Below, piece by piece: positions 17,726 to 25,658 of a stretch of DNA of 46,408 nucleotides; position 1 is the stretch's first letter; each line of letters begins with the position of its first letter. Under the pieces are notes generated by a model. The model did not search any database. It worked only from the letters and a program-made list of their open reading frames with translations, and was not told the DNA's origin. A program made the translations under genes and the position numbers. Source of the stretch: an uncultured Eubacterium sp. (GTDB taxonomy: Bacteria; Bacillota; Clostridia; Lachnospirales; Lachnospiraceae); contig CANDMI010000025.1 of the NCBI GenBank assembly GCA_947385775.1, positions 1 through 46,408 on the forward strand. The letters are read 5' to 3'.

Positions 17726-17761
17726 TCCTATAAAGCCTGCCCCTCCTGTGACTACAACCAT
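17726..17761 (-). pseudogene. N-terminal stub of an NAD-dependent epimerase (hldD-like)
   Basis: A frame starting at ATG 17761, overlapping the gmhB stop (ATGGTTGTAG), encodes MVVVTGGAGFIG, the canonical opening of HldD and related sugar-nucleotide epimerases. Resemblance ends after about 12 codons and the frame continues as the antisense-free out-of-frame reading of the next glycosyltransferase gene. The overlap with gmhB is the arrangement expected for a translationally coupled gmhB-epimerase pair. I conclude that the rest of the epimerase was replaced. Confidence 0.65.
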
Positions 17762-18327
17762 TTTTTATCCTCTACAATAAATCTGGCCGCTTCCAATAAA
17801 TCCGCAGCATATCTAATATCTTTATACCTTCCAAGCCTGACACGTTCCAGCTTCTCTTTTTTTTCACTATTTCCGACAAGAATTCCCCGACAGCCAACGC
17901 GGTCGCAAATGGAACAGTCTCTCATCATGTCTCCTACCGCCCAGCTGGAACCCATATCAATTTTGAAATCTTCAACCGCCCTTTCATACAAACCGATCGC
18001 AGGTTTACGACAGTTGCATACGACTTTGTATTCTTCAATAACTGCATCCGGTAAATGTGGACAGTAATAAACCCCGTTTATCACAATTCCATTTTTCTTT
18101 AGCGTAGCGATCATCCAGCAATTTAAATTCCAAAAATCCCTTTCCGTGTAATACCCTCTGGCGATCCCTGACTGGTTTGTTATCACGATAAGCATGTAAC
18201 CTAAATCTTGAAGCATCTTAAGCCCATCTATTGCCCCCGGCAAGAATTCAAAATCTTCGATTTTATAAAGGTAATGCTTTTCAACATTTATCGTTCCATC
18301 CCGATCCAAAAATACCGCTTTATTCAT
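17752..18327 (-). CDS. gmhB: D-glycero-D-manno-heptose 1,7-bisphosphate 7-phosphatase
   Basis: Removes the 7-phosphate of heptose 1,7-bisphosphate before nucleotidyl transfer. HAD motif I is FLDRDGTIN (D8, D10), motif II ITNQSGIARG, and motif IV VGDMMRDC. The GmhB zinc loop is complete: C-P-H followed by C-N-C (YYCPHLPD, VCNCRKP). The start is the ATG at 18327, which overlaps the gmhA stop by 4 bp (ATGA), not the longer frame. Length 191 is normal. Confidence 0.92.
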   Translation of the reverse strand: MNKAVFLDRDGTINVEKHYLYKIEDFEFLPGAIDGLKMLQDLGYMLIVITNQSGIARGYYTERDFWNLNCWMIATLKKNGIVINGVYYCPHLPDAVIEEYKVVCNCRKPAIGLYERAVEDFKIDMGSSWAVGDMMRDCSICDRVGCRGILVGNSEKKEKLERVRLGRYKDIRYAADLLEAARFIVEDKKWL

Positions 18328-18896
18328 CCCAGCTTCCCTTCTACGATCTCGCATAAGATATGTATAAGCAGTATATGGCATTCCTGAACCCTTGCGGTAT
18401 TCCTATATGGGACTATAATAGGACAGTCAACCTGTTTACCTATTTCACCGCCATTCCTGCCAAGAAGCGCGGCCGTCTTTGCACCTTTACTCTTTGCTAT
18501 TTTTGCAGCCTTATATATATTTTCCGAATTTCCACTGGTACTGATGCCGATAAATATATCTCCACAATTACAATGCCCTTTTGCCTGGCGCGCAAACACA
18601 TTCGCATAACCATAATCGTTCGCTATCGCTGTCAATGTAGCCACATCCGCATTTAATACTACAGCAGGCCATGCGTCACGTTCCTTTTGGAACCTTCCCA
18701 CGATTTCTCCAGCAAAATGAAGGGCATCCGAAGCAGACCCTCCATTTCCACATAGGACTAATTTATTTCCCGATTTTATCGCCCCTGCGATCTCATCCGC
18801 CAGACAGGCCAAAGCGTCAAGCAGCTTTTCATTTTCAAGCAATTCGTTTTTTACTTTTATGCTTTCCTGAATGCGCCTTGTAATTAATTCTTTCAT
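18324..18896 (-). CDS. gmhA: Sedoheptulose 7-phosphate isomerase
   Basis: Converts sedoheptulose 7-phosphate to D-glycero-D-manno-heptose 7-phosphate, the entry step of heptose synthesis. It is a SIS-domain protein: LVLCGNGGSASDALHFAGE, ISTSGNSENI, and the family motif LTAIANDYGYANVFARQ. I choose the ATG at 18896 (190 aa) because the codons upstream contain its ribosome site, GGAGGATGCC. A start 4 codons earlier is possible but would overlap that site. gmhB follows with a 4-bp overlap. Confidence 0.93.
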   Translation of the reverse strand: MKELITRRIQESIKVKNELLENEKLLDALACLADEIAGAIKSGNKLVLCGNGGSASDALHFAGEIVGRFQKERDAWPAVVLNADVATLTAIANDYGYANVFARQAKGHCNCGDIFIGISTSGNSENIYKAAKIAKSKGAKTAALLGRNGGEIGKQVDCPIIVPYRNTARVQECHILLIHILCEIVEGKLG

Positions 18897-18933
18897 GGCA
18901 TCCTCCATGCATATTTATACATGCAAAACATGA

Positions 18934-20376
18934 TTAATTTCGTATTTTTTCTATCAGGCTCGATGTTGACTTTCCCTCCACGAAGGGCATTCGCTCGAAA
19001 CGTCCGCCTCGCGCCTCCACATATTCTTTTCCCACAACCTCTTTTGGCTGATAATCTCCGCCTTTCACAAGAATGTCTGGTTCCACCTTTTGGATCAGTT
19101 CAAGAGGCGTATCTTCATCGAAAATAACAACATAATCCACAAATCCGAATGCGCAAAGCATTTCCGCACGTTCTAACTCATTATTGATCGGCCTGCCTGG
19201 CCCTTTTAGCCTTCTGACCGATGCGTCACTATTAAGCCCTACGATCAAAATATCGCCTAATTTTGCGGCTTCCTGTAAATAGCGGGCATGTCCTAAATGC
19301 AAAATATCAAAGCAGCCATTTGTAAAAACTATTTTTTTACCTTCATATTCTTTTCTAATACTGCTAATCAAATTTTCAGAAACGATTTTATTTACGACAT
19401 TATGCGTCCCATCCGCTAACCGTTCCCTTACCTCAGTCCAATATACAGCCGATGTGCCTACTTTTGACACTTGAATCCCTGCCGCAAGATTTGCAATATC
19501 TATGGCGCTTTGTATTTTATAACCATTTGCCAGACAAGCAGCCAAATAAGCGATCGTAGTGTCACCTGCCCCTGTTACATCGAAAACTTCCCGTCCTACA
19601 GCCTTGACTGAATGGATGATATGATCTCCAACAAGAACCATCCCTTTCGAACCGCATGTTGTCAGAACATATTTGCAATTACAACTAATTCGCAGCTCAT
19701 TGGATGCATCAATGATATCCTGTTCTGTCTCGATACATCTTTTCGTAAGTTTTTTCAGTTCTTTGAGATTCGGTTTTAAAAGAGTCGCTCCATCATATTT
19801 CTTACGGTTTGCATCTTTGACGTCAATGATAACGGGAATATTATTTTTTCTCGAAATCGAAATTACGGATTGTGTAAATTCATATGTCAGCAATCCTTTC
19901 AAGTAATCTGATATCAGGATCAGATCAAAGCATTCCACTCTTTTTTGAAATTCCTGAACCATCTTTCTGCATTCCGATTCTGACAACGGAAAGGTATCTT
20001 CCACATCCAGCCGCAACACCTGCTGATTGTTGGACGCAAGAAATCTAGTCTTTTCTGTCGTGTTCCTGTCAAGAGATAGAATTAAATCTGTATTTATACC
20101 CGTTATCGCAAAAATGTCCTTTAATTTCCTGCCCGTTTTATCATTTCCAACTATTGACATGACTGAAACTTCCTGGCCAGCAGCGATAAGGTTTGACGCA
20201 ACATTAGCCGCTCCTCCAAGTACGCTTTTTTCTTCCTTTTTCTTAAAAACAGGAACTGGCGCTTCCGGCGATATCCGATCAATGTCACCGATAACGTATG
20301 TATCTAACATCACATCTCCGATCACAAGGATTTTATAAGGTTTTATATTTTGATATAATATATTTTGCTCCGCCAT
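18934..20376 (-). CDS. hldE: Bifunctional heptose 7-phosphate kinase / heptose 1-phosphate adenylyltransferase
   Basis: Two-domain enzyme of 480 aa. Residues ~1-320 are a PfkB/ribokinase-type kinase (ILVIGDVMLDTYVIGD, LGGAANVASNLIAAG, DVTGAGDT); ~345-480 form the nucleotidyltransferase with HxGH (FTNGCFDILHLGHARYL). Together with GmhA and GmhB it yields ADP-D-glycero-beta-D-manno-heptose. The start is the ATG at 20376, 1 bp past the GT9 stop and behind GAGGACACTGAA; the longer frame adds 16 unrelated residues. ADP-heptose is typical of Gram-negatives but occurs in some Firmicutes. Confidence 0.92.
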   Translation of the reverse strand: MAEQNILYQNIKPYKILVIGDVMLDTYVIGDIDRISPEAPVPVFKKKEEKSVLGGAANVASNLIAAGQEVSVMSIVGNDKTGRKLKDIFAITGINTDLILSLDRNTTEKTRFLASNNQQVLRLDVEDTFPLSESECRKMVQEFQKRVECFDLILISDYLKGLLTYEFTQSVISISRKNNIPVIIDVKDANRKKYDGATLLKPNLKELKKLTKRCIETEQDIIDASNELRISCNCKYVLTTCGSKGMVLVGDHIIHSVKAVGREVFDVTGAGDTTIAYLAACLANGYKIQSAIDIANLAAGIQVSKVGTSAVYWTEVRERLADGTHNVVNKIVSENLISSIRKEYEGKKIVFTNGCFDILHLGHARYLQEAAKLGDILIVGLNSDASVRRLKGPGRPINNELERAEMLCAFGFVDYVVIFDEDTPLELIQKVEPDILVKGGDYQPKEVVGKEYVEARGGRFERMPFVEGKSTSSLIEKIRN

Positions 20377-20377
20377 T

Positions 20378-21532
20378 TCAGTGTCCTCGATGATTAAAAT
20401 ATGCCAATACTTTTTTCGATACATCCTCTGGTTTTATTTTCTTCAAGCATTCATTTTGATTGACGCACGCTCTGCGCATACACGGCTTACAGCTCATCCC
20501 TTTAGAAAAGCAATAGACATCTTTTTTGGCATAAGGCCTTGCCATTTCTGGAAGGACTGGGCCAAACACCACAAATGACGGCACTCCATATGCTGTAGCG
20601 ATATGCCCTGCCCCGCTGTCGTTACAGATCATTGCATCGCATAAACTGATCCGCAGCATATATTCCTCTATCGATGTGTTGCTTATGATATATCTTGCCC
20701 CGCAGCTTAACGCTGCGTTTTCCAGTTTTGTTACCGCTTTTTTTTCATTCGGCCCCTCAAAAATTACAAAAACAGCATTTAAACAAGATTTATGAAGTTG
20801 GATCAATACCTTGTGGAAACCGCCCCATTCCCTAATAGCCAGGCTTGCTCCCGGATGAATTCCTATCGTAAGTTTGCCTTCCAACTTATTTTGCTTTCTA
20901 AATTCCTTTCGTTTCAATTCCTGCCTTTGGTTTATATCTAGCCTTGGATATAAATCTTCATCACGAAATATACATCCCAGGGATTTTATAAAAAACATTT
21001 TATCCTCAACCAAATGCTTTACCTCATCTGATGGATTGATCACATCTGTTAAAAAACATTCTCCGCCAGTATAGTTATAACTTACTTTTCTTTTCGCATT
21101 ACAATAATGCATAAAATATATATATCTAAGGTCGCCGCGCAGTTCAAGCGCATAGTCATAAGCCCTGACATTTACAGTTTTTGTCCATTCTCTTAATTTC
21201 TTCCTATTTAACGCCAGACTCCAGATAGAATTTATAAAAGAACAATCTATAACAACAAATTCATCGATCAAATTTTGGCTTTCTAATATTTCCTTAGCCC
21301 ATTTCCCACATACCAATGTTATTCTACAATAGTCGTTATTCTTTTTTATCACCCTAAGCGCAGGCGTTAACATTACCATATCGCCAATTAAAGTTGGATC
21401 AATGATAAGTATGGAGTTGGCAACTGTTATATCAGGCTGCGTATACGACTTTTTCTCATGAAACAAACAATTTAGAATCTCATTTACTGCTTTTAAATTC
21501 TTTGTCTTTTTCTTGTTAAATTTCTTTAACAT
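20378..21532 (-). CDS. GT9 heptosyltransferase-like glycosyltransferase
   Basis: 384-aa GT9 protein of the heptosyltransferase family. ILIIDPTLIGDMVMLTPALRVI is the family start; TIGIHPGAS.AIREWG binds the nucleotide, and ICNDSGAGHIATAYGVPSFVVFGP is the C-terminal hallmark (D-S-G-x-x-H). A C-terminal cysteine set (CKPCMRRACVNQNEC) is usual for heptosyltransferases. Being directly upstream of hldE-gmhA-gmhB, it most likely uses the ADP-heptose those genes make and attaches heptose to the repeat unit. Confidence 0.88.
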   Translation of the reverse strand: MLKKFNKKKTKNLKAVNEILNCLFHEKKSYTQPDITVANSILIIDPTLIGDMVMLTPALRVIKKNNDYCRITLVCGKWAKEILESQNLIDEFVVIDCSFINSIWSLALNRKKLREWTKTVNVRAYDYALELRGDLRYIYFMHYCNAKRKVSYNYTGGECFLTDVINPSDEVKHLVEDKMFFIKSLGCIFRDEDLYPRLDINQRQELKRKEFRKQNKLEGKLTIGIHPGASLAIREWGGFHKVLIQLHKSCLNAVFVIFEGPNEKKAVTKLENAALSCGARYIISNTSIEEYMLRISLCDAMICNDSGAGHIATAYGVPSFVVFGPVLPEMARPYAKKDVYCFSKGMSCKPCMRRACVNQNECLKKIKPEDVSKKVLAYFNHRGH

Positions 21533-21618: not shown

Positions 21619-23202
21619 TTATCCAATCATATATTTCACGATTTCAATAGCATAACAATGCAATTTATACACTTTCGGAAACTCAAACCTTTGATAGACC
21701 TTATATCTGGCTTCTGCCCTTTTCTTTACTTCACTCAAGTCTTTCTGTGTGCTCATCCCTCCAAAATTGAAGTTCGATATTAAATGATCAAAAGTCATTA
21801 CTTTTTTACCCTGTTTTCGAAGTGAGATCATGTAATAAAAATCATCATACATGGACTCCAGAATATATGGGTTATCGATCAATACCTCCCGTTTTGAAAA
21901 AGACGCGGGATGACACCATCCGGCCGTTGTCCAAAAGTGGCCTATCTTAGCTTTCTTGATTGTAACGCCTGTAGGTTTATACACTCTGATATTTCCCCAT
22001 GCAAAATCATAATGATATTTTTGATAATGATCCACCATCATTTCTACCGCATCCTGTTCATACCAATCATCCGCATTGATCTGTCCTACTAATTCCCCAT
22101 GCGCCAGCCTAGCGCCTTTGTTCAACGCATCATACATCCCCTTGTCCGGTTCGGAAATGATCAATAGCGAACGCCCAGGAGTTGAATCAAAAATTTCCTG
22201 ATAAGACCTTGCATTTTCCACGGTCTTATCCATAGATGCCCCATCAATAATAATGTACTCTATATTCGGATAGGTTTGATTAAAAACCGCGCTTATCGTT
22301 TTCGATATCGTATCCTCACGATTATATGAGACAGTAAGGATCGTGACAAGCGGCCGGGCTTTGGTAAGGGGTTGGATGCCTTCTGTCAGCCTGATACTAT
22401 CTTCAAAACCATACCTGCTTACCAAATCCACTTTATCATATGTCAGGCTGCCAAACGCCTTTTTTACAATACGGACTCCCGCCACCCTAAGTATAAAATT
22501 AAAGGCCTTGGTAAACCGAATCTTTTTGCCATGGTAGCGTGCGATATTCCTAACCATATCAGTGGCGCTCACATATTCTTTATTCTGCGGAAAGAACAGC
22601 CCCCTTTTCTCCTGATCTATTACTTCCTTCACAAATTCGCACAGATTCCCAATGTATATCATCGATCTTTTATTGTCATAATCAGGAAATATCGGGCTTT
22701 TTAATGCAAAACTTCGAATCTTCTGGTAATTGCCTCTACATCCTTTACCATATACCATTGGAAGCCTTAAACATGCAAACTTAAACTTTTCATCACTTAT
22801 TTTGTTTATGGCTCTGTCCGCCTGTAACTTGCTTTTTCCATAGGTATTAACCGGATGCGGTTTTGCGCTCTTCTTAATATGGCCTGTCGTTTTTCCATAC
22901 ACAGACATAGAAGATAATAGTATAAACTGTCCAACGCCCCCTTCTTTGGCAGCTTTCGCGACAGTAATTGCCAGGCTGGCGTTAATATCGTAAAAGAGGC
23001 GCCTATTGCGTTTCGTTTCTTTAATATGGGCTATGCCAGCCGTATGAAAGACAACATCATAATTACTAAAATCTTTGGGCATTGGCATCCAGCCAACCGC
23101 ATCCTTTACCGTAACTGTATAATCCTTAGGATAGTTGTCCAGATACTCTTTTACACAATCGCCGATATACGAATTTGCTCCCGTTATCAGAACCCTTTTC
23201 AC
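21619..23202 (-). CDS. Fusion of an SDR epimerase and a GT2 glycosyltransferase
   Basis: 527 aa. Residues 1-~275 form an extended SDR (VLITGANSYIGDCVKEYLD, SSMSVYGKTTG, NTYGKSK as Tyr-Lys pair, RSMIYIGNLCEFV); residues ~285-527 form a GT2 transferase (VTILTVSYNREDTISKTISA, IDGASMDKT, INADDWYEQDA). I find no stop or ribosome site at the boundary. It starts at GTG 23202 (GGGGAG, 5 nt) inside the end of the priming transferase gene, overlapping by 77 bp. A product channelled from epimerase to transferase is the natural reading; which sugar is unknown. Confidence 0.82.
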   Translation of the reverse strand: MKRVLITGANSYIGDCVKEYLDNYPKDYTVTVKDAVGWMPMPKDFSNYDVVFHTAGIAHIKETKRNRRLFYDINASLAITVAKAAKEGGVGQFILLSSMSVYGKTTGHIKKSAKPHPVNTYGKSKLQADRAINKISDEKFKFACLRLPMVYGKGCRGNYQKIRSFALKSPIFPDYDNKRSMIYIGNLCEFVKEVIDQEKRGLFFPQNKEYVSATDMVRNIARYHGKKIRFTKAFNFILRVAGVRIVKKAFGSLTYDKVDLVSRYGFEDSIRLTEGIQPLTKARPLVTILTVSYNREDTISKTISAVFNQTYPNIEYIIIDGASMDKTVENARSYQEIFDSTPGRSLLIISEPDKGMYDALNKGARLAHGELVGQINADDWYEQDAVEMMVDHYQKYHYDFAWGNIRVYKPTGVTIKKAKIGHFWTTAGWCHPASFSKREVLIDNPYILESMYDDFYYMISLRKQGKKVMTFDHLISNFNFGGMSTQKDLSEVKKRAEARYKVYQRFEFPKVYKLHCYAIEIVKYMIG

Positions 23203-23968
23203 CAAAACTCCCCGTACCTCCCTCCACTACGCCATCATGGCGTAAAACAGAAGCGATCGTTCCAAAGAAGCATTCCAAATCCATCCGAAATCCCATCCTC
23301 CGGCAATACTCCCCGTCAATCCTTGCCTTTTCTGCAATTTCAAGCTTATCCCGGCCGCTGATCTGCGCAAGCCCCGTCAACCCGGGCAAAACATCATTCG
23401 CACAATACTTGTCCCTTTCTTCTACCAGATCATACTGGTTCCACAATGCAGGACGCGGCCCTACCACCGACATCTTCCCCCGCAGTATGTCCCACATCTG
23501 GGGCAGCTCGTCCATTGAAGTCCATCTTAACACACGCCCCACCCTCGTAATATATTTCTCCGGCTCCTCCAACTGGTGCGTCGGCACATCATGGGGCGCG
23601 CCCATTTTCATACTTCGAAACTTATGGCAGAAAAAGAGCTTGCGATCCTTGCCTACCCTCTTTTGTTTGAATATTACCGGACCTGGGTCATCCAAAAATA
23701 TAATGGCCGAAAGGATGGCAAGTAGCGGTAAAAGCATTACAAGCCCTAATGCCGAAAGGACAAAATCCAATCCCCTCTTTACATATCTTGCATAAAAGCT
23801 TTTCTTGTTCCCATCTCTAACCTTGCCTGTGGCAGGCCAGATACGCATATACGCATTCCCATCTTCCAGCTTATCTTCTTTCCGGTTTTCCATATATGCA
23901 GCAGTTCCAAAAATTCCGGCAAATGCGATCACCACTCCCGATATTTTTATAATCGTCCTCTTTTCCAT
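23126..23968 (-). CDS. Priming sugar transferase (undecaprenyl-phosphate sugar-1-phosphate transferase)
   Basis: First enzyme of the operon: it loads a sugar-1-phosphate onto the lipid carrier. After one N-terminal hydrophobic segment and a second (LDFVLSALGLVMLLPLLAI), the bacterial sugar transferase core follows with DDPGPVIFKQKRVG, FRSMKMGAP, LRWTSMDELPQMWDILRG and MSVVGPRP. I choose the ATG at 23968 with GGAG upstream over the GTG at 23983. The last ~23 residues, after the usual end GVVEGGTG, are an extra tail that overlaps the next gene. Confidence 0.92.
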   Translation of the reverse strand: MEKRTIIKISGVVIAFAGIFGTAAYMENRKEDKLEDGNAYMRIWPATGKVRDGNKKSFYARYVKRGLDFVLSALGLVMLLPLLAILSAIIFLDDPGPVIFKQKRVGKDRKLFFCHKFRSMKMGAPHDVPTHQLEEPEKYITRVGRVLRWTSMDELPQMWDILRGKMSVVGPRPALWNQYDLVEERDKYCANDVLPGLTGLAQISGRDKLEIAEKARIDGEYCRRMGFRMDLECFFGTIASVLRHDGVVEGGTGSFGEKGSDNGSKFVYRRLCKRVSGQLS

Positions 23969-24028
23969 GACATTTTTCTCCACAGTTACCGTTCAGCCTT
24001 CGGCTTCACTGTAATTTTCCACATCATA

Positions 24029-24057
24029 AAAAGGCCATGGATCCACCACAGCCTTTT
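24029..24057 (-). promoter_or_regulatory. Second leader hairpin with U-run (attenuator-like)
   Basis: In the minus-strand RNA a 12-pair stem (AAAAGGCUGUGG / CCAUGGCCUUUU) with a 5-nt loop is followed by a short U-run. Two of its pairs are G-U wobbles that exist only in the minus-strand transcript, which argues for an RNA element of the operon leader. It starts within the leader ORF stop codon and lies 60 bp before the first capsule gene. Confidence 0.6.
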
Positions 24058-24100
24058 ACCGCACAAAAAAAGCCTGACGCTCATCTACTACGTCAGACAT
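24056..24100 (-). CDS. Leader peptide of the polysaccharide operon (14 aa)
   Basis: ATG at 24100 is preceded by GGAGG with 9-nt spacing; the frame reads MSDVVDERQAFFVR and stops at TAA 24056. The start lies about 22 nt below the expected transcription start. An intrinsic terminator (24065-24098) lies wholly inside the ORF, so a ribosome starting here would cover the 5' arm of the stem. I know no named family for it. Its place, ribosome site and overlap with the terminator make a regulatory leader peptide likely. Confidence 0.6.
   Translation of the reverse strand: MSDVVDERQAFFVR
24065..24098 (-). terminator. Intrinsic terminator inside the leader ORF
   Basis: Stem GTCTGACG / CGTCAGGC (8 pairs, one G-U), 11-nt loop, then seven T on the minus strand (24065-24071). 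It lies about 25 nt after the presumed transcription start and about 100 bp before the priming transferase gene, so it must be passed for the 23-kb operon to be expressed. Confidence 0.7.
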
Positions 24101-24128
24101 TACCTGAAACCTCCGCTTATGATTTTCA

Positions 24129-24147
24129 ATTATAACGCTATAACGCT
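24129..24147 (-). promoter_or_regulatory. Polysaccharide operon promoter with tandem repeat
   Basis: TATAAT (24129-24134, minus) is a perfect -10 placed just before the leader ribosome site. No good -35 lies 16-18 bp upstream (GCCTGA), which suggests an activator. A tandem direct repeat, AGCGTTAT twice (24132-24147), overlaps the -10 and could be the regulator's site. Confidence 0.5.
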
Positions 24148-24621
24148 TGAATCAGGCATATACAAAGCATTTCCCTGATAGAAACTGCGGTGCCATGCCC
24201 TATAATCCAAATTTTTGGCACAAGAATCCACTATGCTTATAACAAATAAGCACAGTCCATTCTTCCCCATTATATCATGCCCGGAAAACACATGTGCCCA
24301 CGCTTCATGAGCTTTCCGAAACAATCCTGTTCAATCTTTTTCTTTCTATATCTCCTATATTATCCTATATTTCTATGATTCTCATCCAGCTATGGCCTCA
24401 CTCCCCATCGCATAGCAGTATTCTACATCATCTTTTTTCAATTTGCAACTCTTAAAATAAATTTGGCAACATTTTCATATTTTGAAAACGTTTTATCGGC
24501 TTTTACGACACTTCCTTTGTGCATATTAACCAAAAACACACGCAGCCTTTTCAAGATAAAATTGTTACCCGTGAAAAATAACACAAAATTCACAAATCCA
24601 CAACTCACCGTTTTCACACCC
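24148..24621. other. Divergent intergenic region, no gene seen
   Basis: This 470-bp region separates the polysaccharide operon (leftward) and the CAP gene (rightward). I see no supported coding frame. TGAAAACGTTTTAT at 24483-24496 resembles a CcpA catabolite-responsive element but differs at the end from the usual consensus and lies about 125 bp above the CAP promoter. Short open frames here have no ribosome sites. Confidence 0.4.
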
Positions 24622-24689: not shown

Positions 24690-25658
24690 ATGAAAGCAAG
24701 ATTCCATCACCAAACAAAGGCCGTCGCCTGTCTGTTAGCTTTTTGTCTGATGTTTTCGCAGGCAATCTGCGCACAGGCGGCCGCTATCCGTAAGACAGAT
24801 GTAGAGGCGGCTTCAAATGGCAACATTCTGGTCGGCGTGGAAGGAAATTTCGAAAAAATAAACACAAACGAAGTCCTTAAGCGTATAAACGCCATTCGTA
24901 AAGAAGCGTGTCAGAAAGGCTACGTAAACCCTGAAAATGGAAAGAAGCTGAAAATGAGCGATTACACCGCGATAAAATGGTCGTCCGACCTGGAATGGAT
25001 CGCGCAGCTGCGTGCGGCGGAAGCCACTGTAAAGGAAGACCACACAAGGCCAAACGGACAGTTATGCTTCAGCATCCAGCATAACGGCGAAAAAAGCTGG
25101 GCAGAAAACCTGGCGTGGAACGGTTCCGGCATTATGGCGGGCATCGAACAGTGGTACGGAGAAAAAAATGACTGGGTAAAGCAAAACGACCAGGCCGTGA
25201 CCGGACATTACACAAGTCTGATCAGTCCGGGCCATACCAGCATAGGGCTTGGTTCATTCCGTCAAACCGCCGGCAAATGGTATGCCGTCTCAGCGGAATT
25301 TAGCTCCGCCGCATCGACAGATGAGCAATCGCTGAATTTAAGCGGAAAAAAGACACAAACAATCGAAGTGTCCGCAAAAGCTGCCAGCAAAACAAAGATT
25401 AAAGCCCCTTCCACATTGAAGGCAGGGAAAAAGAAAAGCTTAAAGGTCACGATGCAGATTTCTTATGATGGGATCATGGGTGGTAAAAACATTTCAACGG
25501 GCATCCTGTTAGACAACGTATCCTGGACATCCTCAGACCCTTCGGTCTTATCGATCAACGAAAACGGGAAAGCGGAAGCGAAAAAAGCGGGAAAAGCCAC
25601 GATAACCGCAAACGTCGCCGGCAGTAAAAATTTGAAAGCTACGATCAGAGTGAATTAG
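24690..25658 (+). CDS. Secreted CAP (SCP-like) domain protein with C-terminal Big2 domain
   Basis: 322-aa exported protein. The signal peptide (basic MKARFHHQTK, hydrophobic VACLLAFCLMFSQAI) probably ends near AQAAA. Residues ~55-210 form a CAP domain: LKRINAIRKEAC, WSSDLEWIAQLRAAEA, DHTRPNGQLCF, WAENLAW, GHYTSLISPGHTSIGLG with the paired His of the CAP pocket. Residues ~240-322 are a bacterial Ig-like group 2 domain (VSWTSSDPSVLSINENGKA, KAGKATITANV). It is monocistronic with its own promoter and terminator. It has no sortase motif or membrane anchor, so it is likely free or loosely wall-bound. The function of such bacterial CAP proteins is largely unknown. Confidence 0.88.
   Translation: MKARFHHQTKAVACLLAFCLMFSQAICAQAAAIRKTDVEAASNGNILVGVEGNFEKINTNEVLKRINAIRKEACQKGYVNPENGKKLKMSDYTAIKWSSDLEWIAQLRAAEATVKEDHTRPNGQLCFSIQHNGEKSWAENLAWNGSGIMAGIEQWYGEKNDWVKQNDQAVTGHYTSLISPGHTSIGLGSFRQTAGKWYAVSAEFSSAASTDEQSLNLSGKKTQTIEVSAKAASKTKIKAPSTLKAGKKKSLKVTMQISYDGIMGGKNISTGILLDNVSWTSSDPSVLSINENGKAEAKKAGKATITANVAGSKNLKATIRVN

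Follow-up and report, generated by a model that had tools for sequence, protein, structure and literature searches.

Entry into the operon and the elements of its leader

What decides whether RNA polymerase enters a polysaccharide operon of some 23 kb? The question is raised by the window, the whole stretch of 46,408 nucleotides that we analyzed, which is an entire contig (C25) of the draft genome of an uncultured Eubacterium sp. (3.98 Mb in 152 contigs; the host genome in what follows). Its main ORFs lie on the minus strand, from position 23983 down to 862. By Pfam assignment they begin with a sugar transferase and continue with an epimerase/glycosyltransferase, heptose-type genes, methyltransferases, an asparagine synthase-like gene, and others; two of the operon ORFs had no Pfam match. 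The first gene (23126..23968, minus strand) encodes a bacterial sugar transferase (PF02397; 2.5e-54 for the frame 23126-23983), and a GGAG site points to the ATG at 23968 as its start. A gene for a CAP-domain protein (24690-25658) is divergent from the operon. Genes resembling those for ADP-heptose synthesis (SIS, HAD, and PfkB plus cytidylyltransferase) and a GT9 heptosyltransferase gene are found at 17752-21532, within the operon of what is likely a Gram-positive host.

The initial annotation of the leader proposed that translation of a short peptide controls a terminator lying inside its coding region. All the elements that it named are located on the minus strand as claimed: a TATAAT hexamer taken as the -10 element (24129..24134), a GGAGG Shine-Dalgarno (SD) sequence (24114-24110), a 14-codon ORF (MSDVVDERQAFFVR, 24056..24100, from the ATG at 24100 to the TAA at 24056), an intrinsic terminator within this ORF (T1, 24065..24098), and a second hairpin (T2, 24029..24057). 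The stem of T1 (24098-24072), given there as eight pairs, folds with nine (-11.8 kcal/mol) and is followed by a run of seven U residues (24071-24065). T2 has 12 pairs, some of them G-U, and a U run at its end (-16.0 kcal/mol); it is specific to the minus strand, as had been stated, since the other strand would carry mismatches. The TATAAT is present, but it lacks a recognizable -35 element and did not appear among the sites listed by our promoter scan. T1 was likewise unlisted in the initial terminator scan, because its loop of 9 nt exceeds the 3-8 nt that were allowed.

The fold of the 146-nt region is more stable than those of its shuffled versions (z = -4.41, with none of 200 as good). When the 356-nt leader was shuffled 2000 times with its dinucleotides preserved, a terminator with a stem of at least eight pairs arose in 11 of the resulting sequences. 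As sequences, T1 and T2 are present as stop signals, and they would be expected to terminate transcription. About 60 nt separate T2 from the first gene, a gap that would suit a reading in which T1 and T2 are plain insulators against stray upstream transcription and the operon promoter lies between the terminators and the gene. However, the promoter scan listed no minus-strand site between T2 and the gene, and the H1 hairpin described below links the upstream leader to the operon; we regard insulation as improbable.

Beside the ribosome-binding site lies one more palindrome (23985..24012, minus strand). It is a copy of a dispersed REP-like element, GAAGCC[GA]AAGGCTGAAC, and not specific to the leader: the host genome has 61 such places at up to 3 mismatches, versus 4 for the reversed control, and the element is also present in other genomes of the family. 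Because most matches in other genomes fell on 24012-23985, it had been a candidate LoaP hairpin, a reading that was dropped once it proved to be a dispersed repeat.

Conservation of the leader peptide and its terminator

Classical trp-type peptide attenuators have a short ORF that overlaps a terminator and carries a run of regulatory codons. The 14-codon ORF resembles them in overlapping a terminator; unlike them, it has no regulatory codon run, no peptide homologue that we could find, and no supported alternative hairpin. The absence of an amino acid run that would explain classical attenuation, already remarked upon in the initial annotation, was borne out, as the ORF contains no run of any one codon. 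Control by the peptide would mean that termination is decided by translation, with a ribosome on the ORF occupying the 5' arm of T1. A good SD sequence with good spacing and the placement of the terminator fully within the ORF speak for such a switch, as does the rarity of the arrangement by chance: none of the 2000 shuffled leaders combined a terminator with an SD-preceded short ORF around it. On the other hand, among 26 terminators found across the window plus 11 further stretches of host DNA, two lie within an SD-preceded short ORF, T1 being one of them and the other lying inside coding sequence.

Peptide conservation was judged by DNA searches. In the 12 other genomes of the genus (the search set of 13 includes the host), the segment 24020-24140 had no homologue, the best match having an E value of 0.049; a conserved leader peptide, as expected of a peptide attenuator, was thus not found in these 12 genomes. 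When 299 family genomes were queried with 23980-24300, 15 of them, host included, had matches at E <= 0.01. Most of these matches fell at 24036-23981, centered on the dispersed repeat 24012-23985, and four were single short matches elsewhere within the leader; beyond the host copy, none spanned the ORF or T1 (query positions 201-245). The peptide and the terminator were not found to be conserved in the other Lachnospiraceae genomes searched, which argues against the proposal that leader translation decides termination. The lack of a -35 element at the proposed promoter and the far-upstream start that H1 would require as RNA weigh in the same direction. We consider control by the peptide very improbable, and the ORF is probably incidental to the leader. 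Of the claim that a terminator controls operon entry, the anatomy stands, whereas the part assigned to peptide translation is unsupported.

A conserved RNA hairpin upstream of the terminators

About 150-185 nt upstream of the proposed -10 element, the leader carries a hairpin that we term H1 (24282..24318, minus strand), in which a covarying stem bears an apical part of 11 nt, AAGCGUGGGCA. The H1 box is common to the window, to leaders of sugar-transferase operons in two other genomes of the genus (G308 and G309), and to many loaP leaders. A covariance model, from whose training the window H1 was kept out, matched the window once, at 24326-24275 (39.1 bits, E 1.4e-9). The apical letters that are invariant in the family (G.AGC....GGC.C), together with an A that is nearly so, are present in the window, as is the covarying stem.

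Covariation was assessed in an alignment of 41 non-redundant sequences out of 53, the window not among them. The proportion of paired cells was 83.7% versus 73.1 in shuffles, double-change cells numbered 79 versus 32.6, and the covariation score was 0.423 versus 0.223; none of 500 shuffles reached any of these values. Because shuffles ignore relatedness, the comparison with slid structures matters, and in these the paired cells dropped to 26-50%. There were also two weaker measures. Pairs changed on both sides numbered 9 versus 7.0 in shuffles (9 was reached by 11 of 500, and two slid versions gave 9, when slid by one, or 8), and further pair types numbered 28 versus 23.4 (2 of 500 shuffles; 29 in one slid version). 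Three apical pairs are invariant and hence uninformative on covariation. The alternative that the box AGCRTGGGCAC is a DNA promoter box was rejected, as the covariation favors RNA. Sequence comparison shows H1 to be an RNA hairpin that is conserved and tied to one LoaP clade and to polysaccharide operons. If it acts as RNA, transcription would have to start above 24318, and the promoter at 24134 would not be the main one. A weak candidate sigma-70 promoter (TTGCAA-17-TAGAAT, 9/12) was listed 5' of H1 at 24420..24448 on the minus strand.

Within the genus, H1 is found upstream of polysaccharide operons. Matches at E <= 0.1 in the 13 genus genomes comprise one in the host (G000), one in G304, seven in G308, and nine in G309. 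Three further matches (L212, L216, and L213; two in G301 and one in G303) overlap long ORFs and were discarded as false, the position of L212 and L216 being judged by ORF span. The window H1 was the only host match at this level (E 1.2e-7) among the 150 of 823 first-look candidates that were scored, and further copies are possible. With stricter filters, H1 was detected at E <= 1e-4 in at least 5 of 397 family genomes and at least 11 places, a lower bound with 14 candidates scored per genome. The pattern TGMAGCRTGGGCACW had matches in 14 of the 397 family genomes, host included, versus 3 matches of the reversed control; only two of its matches in the 13 non-host genomes are in loaP leaders. 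Neither the window nor seven H1 loci had an Rfam 15 match that reached the gathering score, and below threshold the best match in 23900-24350 (19.1 bits, E 0.57) was not significant.

The LoaP-associated core

To collect loaP loci, genome contigs were scanned with a LoaP alignment (A2), and the best 80 of 129 loci were taken. Among these best 80 of 129, H1 was found upstream of loaP at 49, versus 6 on the other strand (up to 3 mismatches), and the motif GGCG[AGT]AGC lay within 700 nt upstream at 72, versus 14 on the other strand. We use the name LoaP-associated core for GGCG[AGT]AGC / AUGGCGAAGC. At all of the 66 other loci examined, H1 is followed by the core (GGCGNAGC) at a spacing of 70-199 nt (median 131.5). 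These loci, 49 of them loaP loci from the best 80 of 129, 16 from the genus, and one more (L273), include near-copies; 50 are non-redundant. Nine other non-host H1 matches of the 397-genome search also carry the core, some of them being already among the 66. At L270 and L279 in G262, two different NusG-paralogue genes stand in tandem with H1 and the core between them.

The window is the only H1 leader examined without the core: AUGGCGAAGC is absent from the leader, with none found within 500 nt. Since variable inner arms made alignment unsafe, the core was scored not by a covariance model but by a 24-nt position weight matrix (PWM) built from 75 sites chosen by the same motif. The best score in the window leader was -2.3, as compared with a median of 28.2, a 10th percentile of 19.2, and a lowest value of -19.4 for left-out real sites. 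At the expected place, about 114 nt 3' of H1, AUGGCACCGC (24187..24196, minus strand; PWM -9.2) may be a degenerate core. It is enclosed by a long predicted hairpin, H2 (24147..24210, minus strand; -21.0 kcal/mol), for which there is no comparative support. P1, a pairing of the stretch after H1 with the stretch after the core, was unsupported (458 of 2000 permutations were as low).

Against LoaP acting at this leader, the absence of the core weighs most, and it is the main weakness of such a reading; LoaP control may have been lost. Such a loss is the chief rival explanation. The leader would then be a decayed LoaP leader in which H1 is a relic, the core has gone, LoaP has ceased to act, and T1 and T2 lower the expression of a promoter-driven operon. 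Decay fits with the singular lack of a core here, with the absence of a nearby loaP, and with the fact that the ORF/T1 segment is unique among the genus genomes searched. However, H1 is intact, its stem is paired and its invariant positions are kept, and T1 is by its fold a sound terminator, features that a relic need not retain. We hold decay to be rather unlikely.

The host genome has GGCG[AT]AGC in ten regions (one, C124, being a short contig), where it is found close to the loaP end or in the interval before the following gene, which is usually aminotransferase-like and followed by a sugar transferase. In four of these ten regions, a strict terminator follows the core at 58-136 nt, ahead of the operon gene that comes after loaP. 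Between the core and loaP, none of the 72 core-bearing leaders had a strict terminator, a comparison of low power given an average of 0.05 in shuffles. Nor did any of these 72 leaders have a short ORF around a terminator, which is little informative with no strict terminator there. Of 17 genus leaders, 4 had weak terminators, and some of these may lie within the gene. In view of the 0 of 72 loaP leaders with strict terminators and the 4 of 17 genus leaders with weak ones, T1 is a local feature of an H1 leader and not a family trait.

H1 and the phylogeny of LoaP proteins

The host genome has 12 PF02357 places, comprising NusG and 11 others, two of which are partial. This search detected no loaP on the window contig; a loaP next to the operon, which is a frequent but not universal trait of LoaP-type leaders, is thus lacking here. 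A LoaP-family protein, which a LoaP-type leader would require, is nevertheless encoded in the same genome. At the NCBIfam LoaP cut-off of 125, three of eight host proteins pass and five fail. The protein from contig C51 passes at 135.3; the UpxY and RfaH models give it 44 and 22, as against 135 for LoaP. Its gene is an orphan on another contig than the window, flanked by SbcC-like and RarA-like genes (named by eye). A plasmid search for its relatives returned 16 records with a best identity of 28.8%, none of them informative. The 11 host loaP regions contain no H1 at E <= 1.

In a LoaP tree of 84 rows, 46 of the 47 H1-labeled rows fall into one clade of 54 (SH-aLRT 96), which also holds six unlabeled rows, the single G308 paralogue, and the host C51 protein. 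Nine host paralogues are in the tree; C51 alone is in the H1 clade and the other eight are outside. The tree draws on the best 80 of 129 loci, of which six gave no protein and were dropped, and is drawn without L263 and L265 (G304), L262 (G301), the second host C21 copy, and host C50. As for the labels, the upstream DNA of L171 and L172 is too short for "no H1" to be meaningful, L120, which is "no H1" by pattern, has H1 by model (40 bits), and L157 and L193 have weak matches (15.9 and 14.9 bits). Six host proteins (L062, L063, L065, L066, L067, and L068) form a divergent LoaP-like clade with a long C-terminal end; the five that were scored are all below the NCBIfam LoaP cut-off.

Across the genus, NusG paralogues number 11 in the host, two in G304 (one beside its H1), one in G308, and one in G301, the last without a match to the LoaP set. 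G308 has its one paralogue, a member of the H1 clade, alongside seven H1+core leaders. A sugar-transferase match lies within about 2 kb of six of these, and action of one LoaP in trans is therefore plausible. Counting against a LoaP reading, G309 has nine H1+core leaders, and no LoaP was found in its 500 contigs: either its LoaP is missing from the draft or its H1 leaders are served by another protein. The co-occurrence of H1 and LoaP is a good fit across the few genomes of the genus on which it rests. In G308 and G309, many H1+core polysaccharide operons (L209-L228) are preceded by a small XRE-like regulator gene (RIGQRIRQ.RK.KGWSQG; named by eye). It is possible, though doubtful, that the LoaP clade has in H1 a second RNA signal, not described so far, that is independent of the core and read in trans by one orphan LoaP at several polysaccharide operons, in which case the window leader would be naturally core-less.

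A putative antitermination leader and its relation to known systems

The initial annotation had named an antiterminator of the LoaP/NusG type as an alternative, and this is the reading that we favor: the leader carries H1, although no loaP lies near the operon and the core is missing. T1 supplies, as a sequence, the intrinsic terminator that would be expected 3' of the hairpin in a LoaP-type leader. We think it somewhat probable that T1 and T2 serve as terminators in a LoaP-type antitermination leader that has diverged and is tied to the orphan LoaP. For the start site, termination, and LoaP action at this leader, we infer the following course. RNA polymerase would start upstream of H1 and transcribe it into a leader RNA of perhaps 350-450 nt, with T1 and T2 at the terminator end, and by default it would stop at T1 (and T2). 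The orphan C51 LoaP would join the elongation complex via the leader RNA and let polymerase read through into the 23-kb operon, possibly by opposing NusA as at the dfn leader. The 14-codon ORF and T1 would overlap by chance, or the ORF would have a minor role.

According to one study, LoaP binds a small hairpin of the dfn leader, described as UNCG-type, and enables polymerase to read past an intrinsic terminator there that depends on NusA, whereas RfaH reads a DNA element, ops (PMC12691694). Like the dfn (difficidin) leader of Bacillus velezensis, the window has a long biosynthetic operon, a small hairpin 5' of an intrinsic terminator, and a LoaP-family protein in the genome. It differs in having H1, in lacking the core, and in that loaP is on another contig; for the dfn hairpin, the comparison goes as far as its UNCG-type description. 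As with RfaH/ops and UpxY, a NusG paralogue would serve a long polysaccharide operon; unlike RfaH/ops, H1 covaries as RNA, and C51 fits the LoaP model over UpxY and RfaH. The part of the literature covered on LoaP/NusG-paralogue antitermination, hairpins, and capsule leaders held no description of H1, a partial coverage that does not establish novelty.

Little is known of how NusG paralogues choose their operons in Gram-positive gut bacteria. With a covarying hairpin that tracks one LoaP clade, and a genome in which seven marked leaders accompany a single LoaP, a target code would become testable, and H1 would allow LoaP-controlled surface-polysaccharide operons to be listed from sequence.
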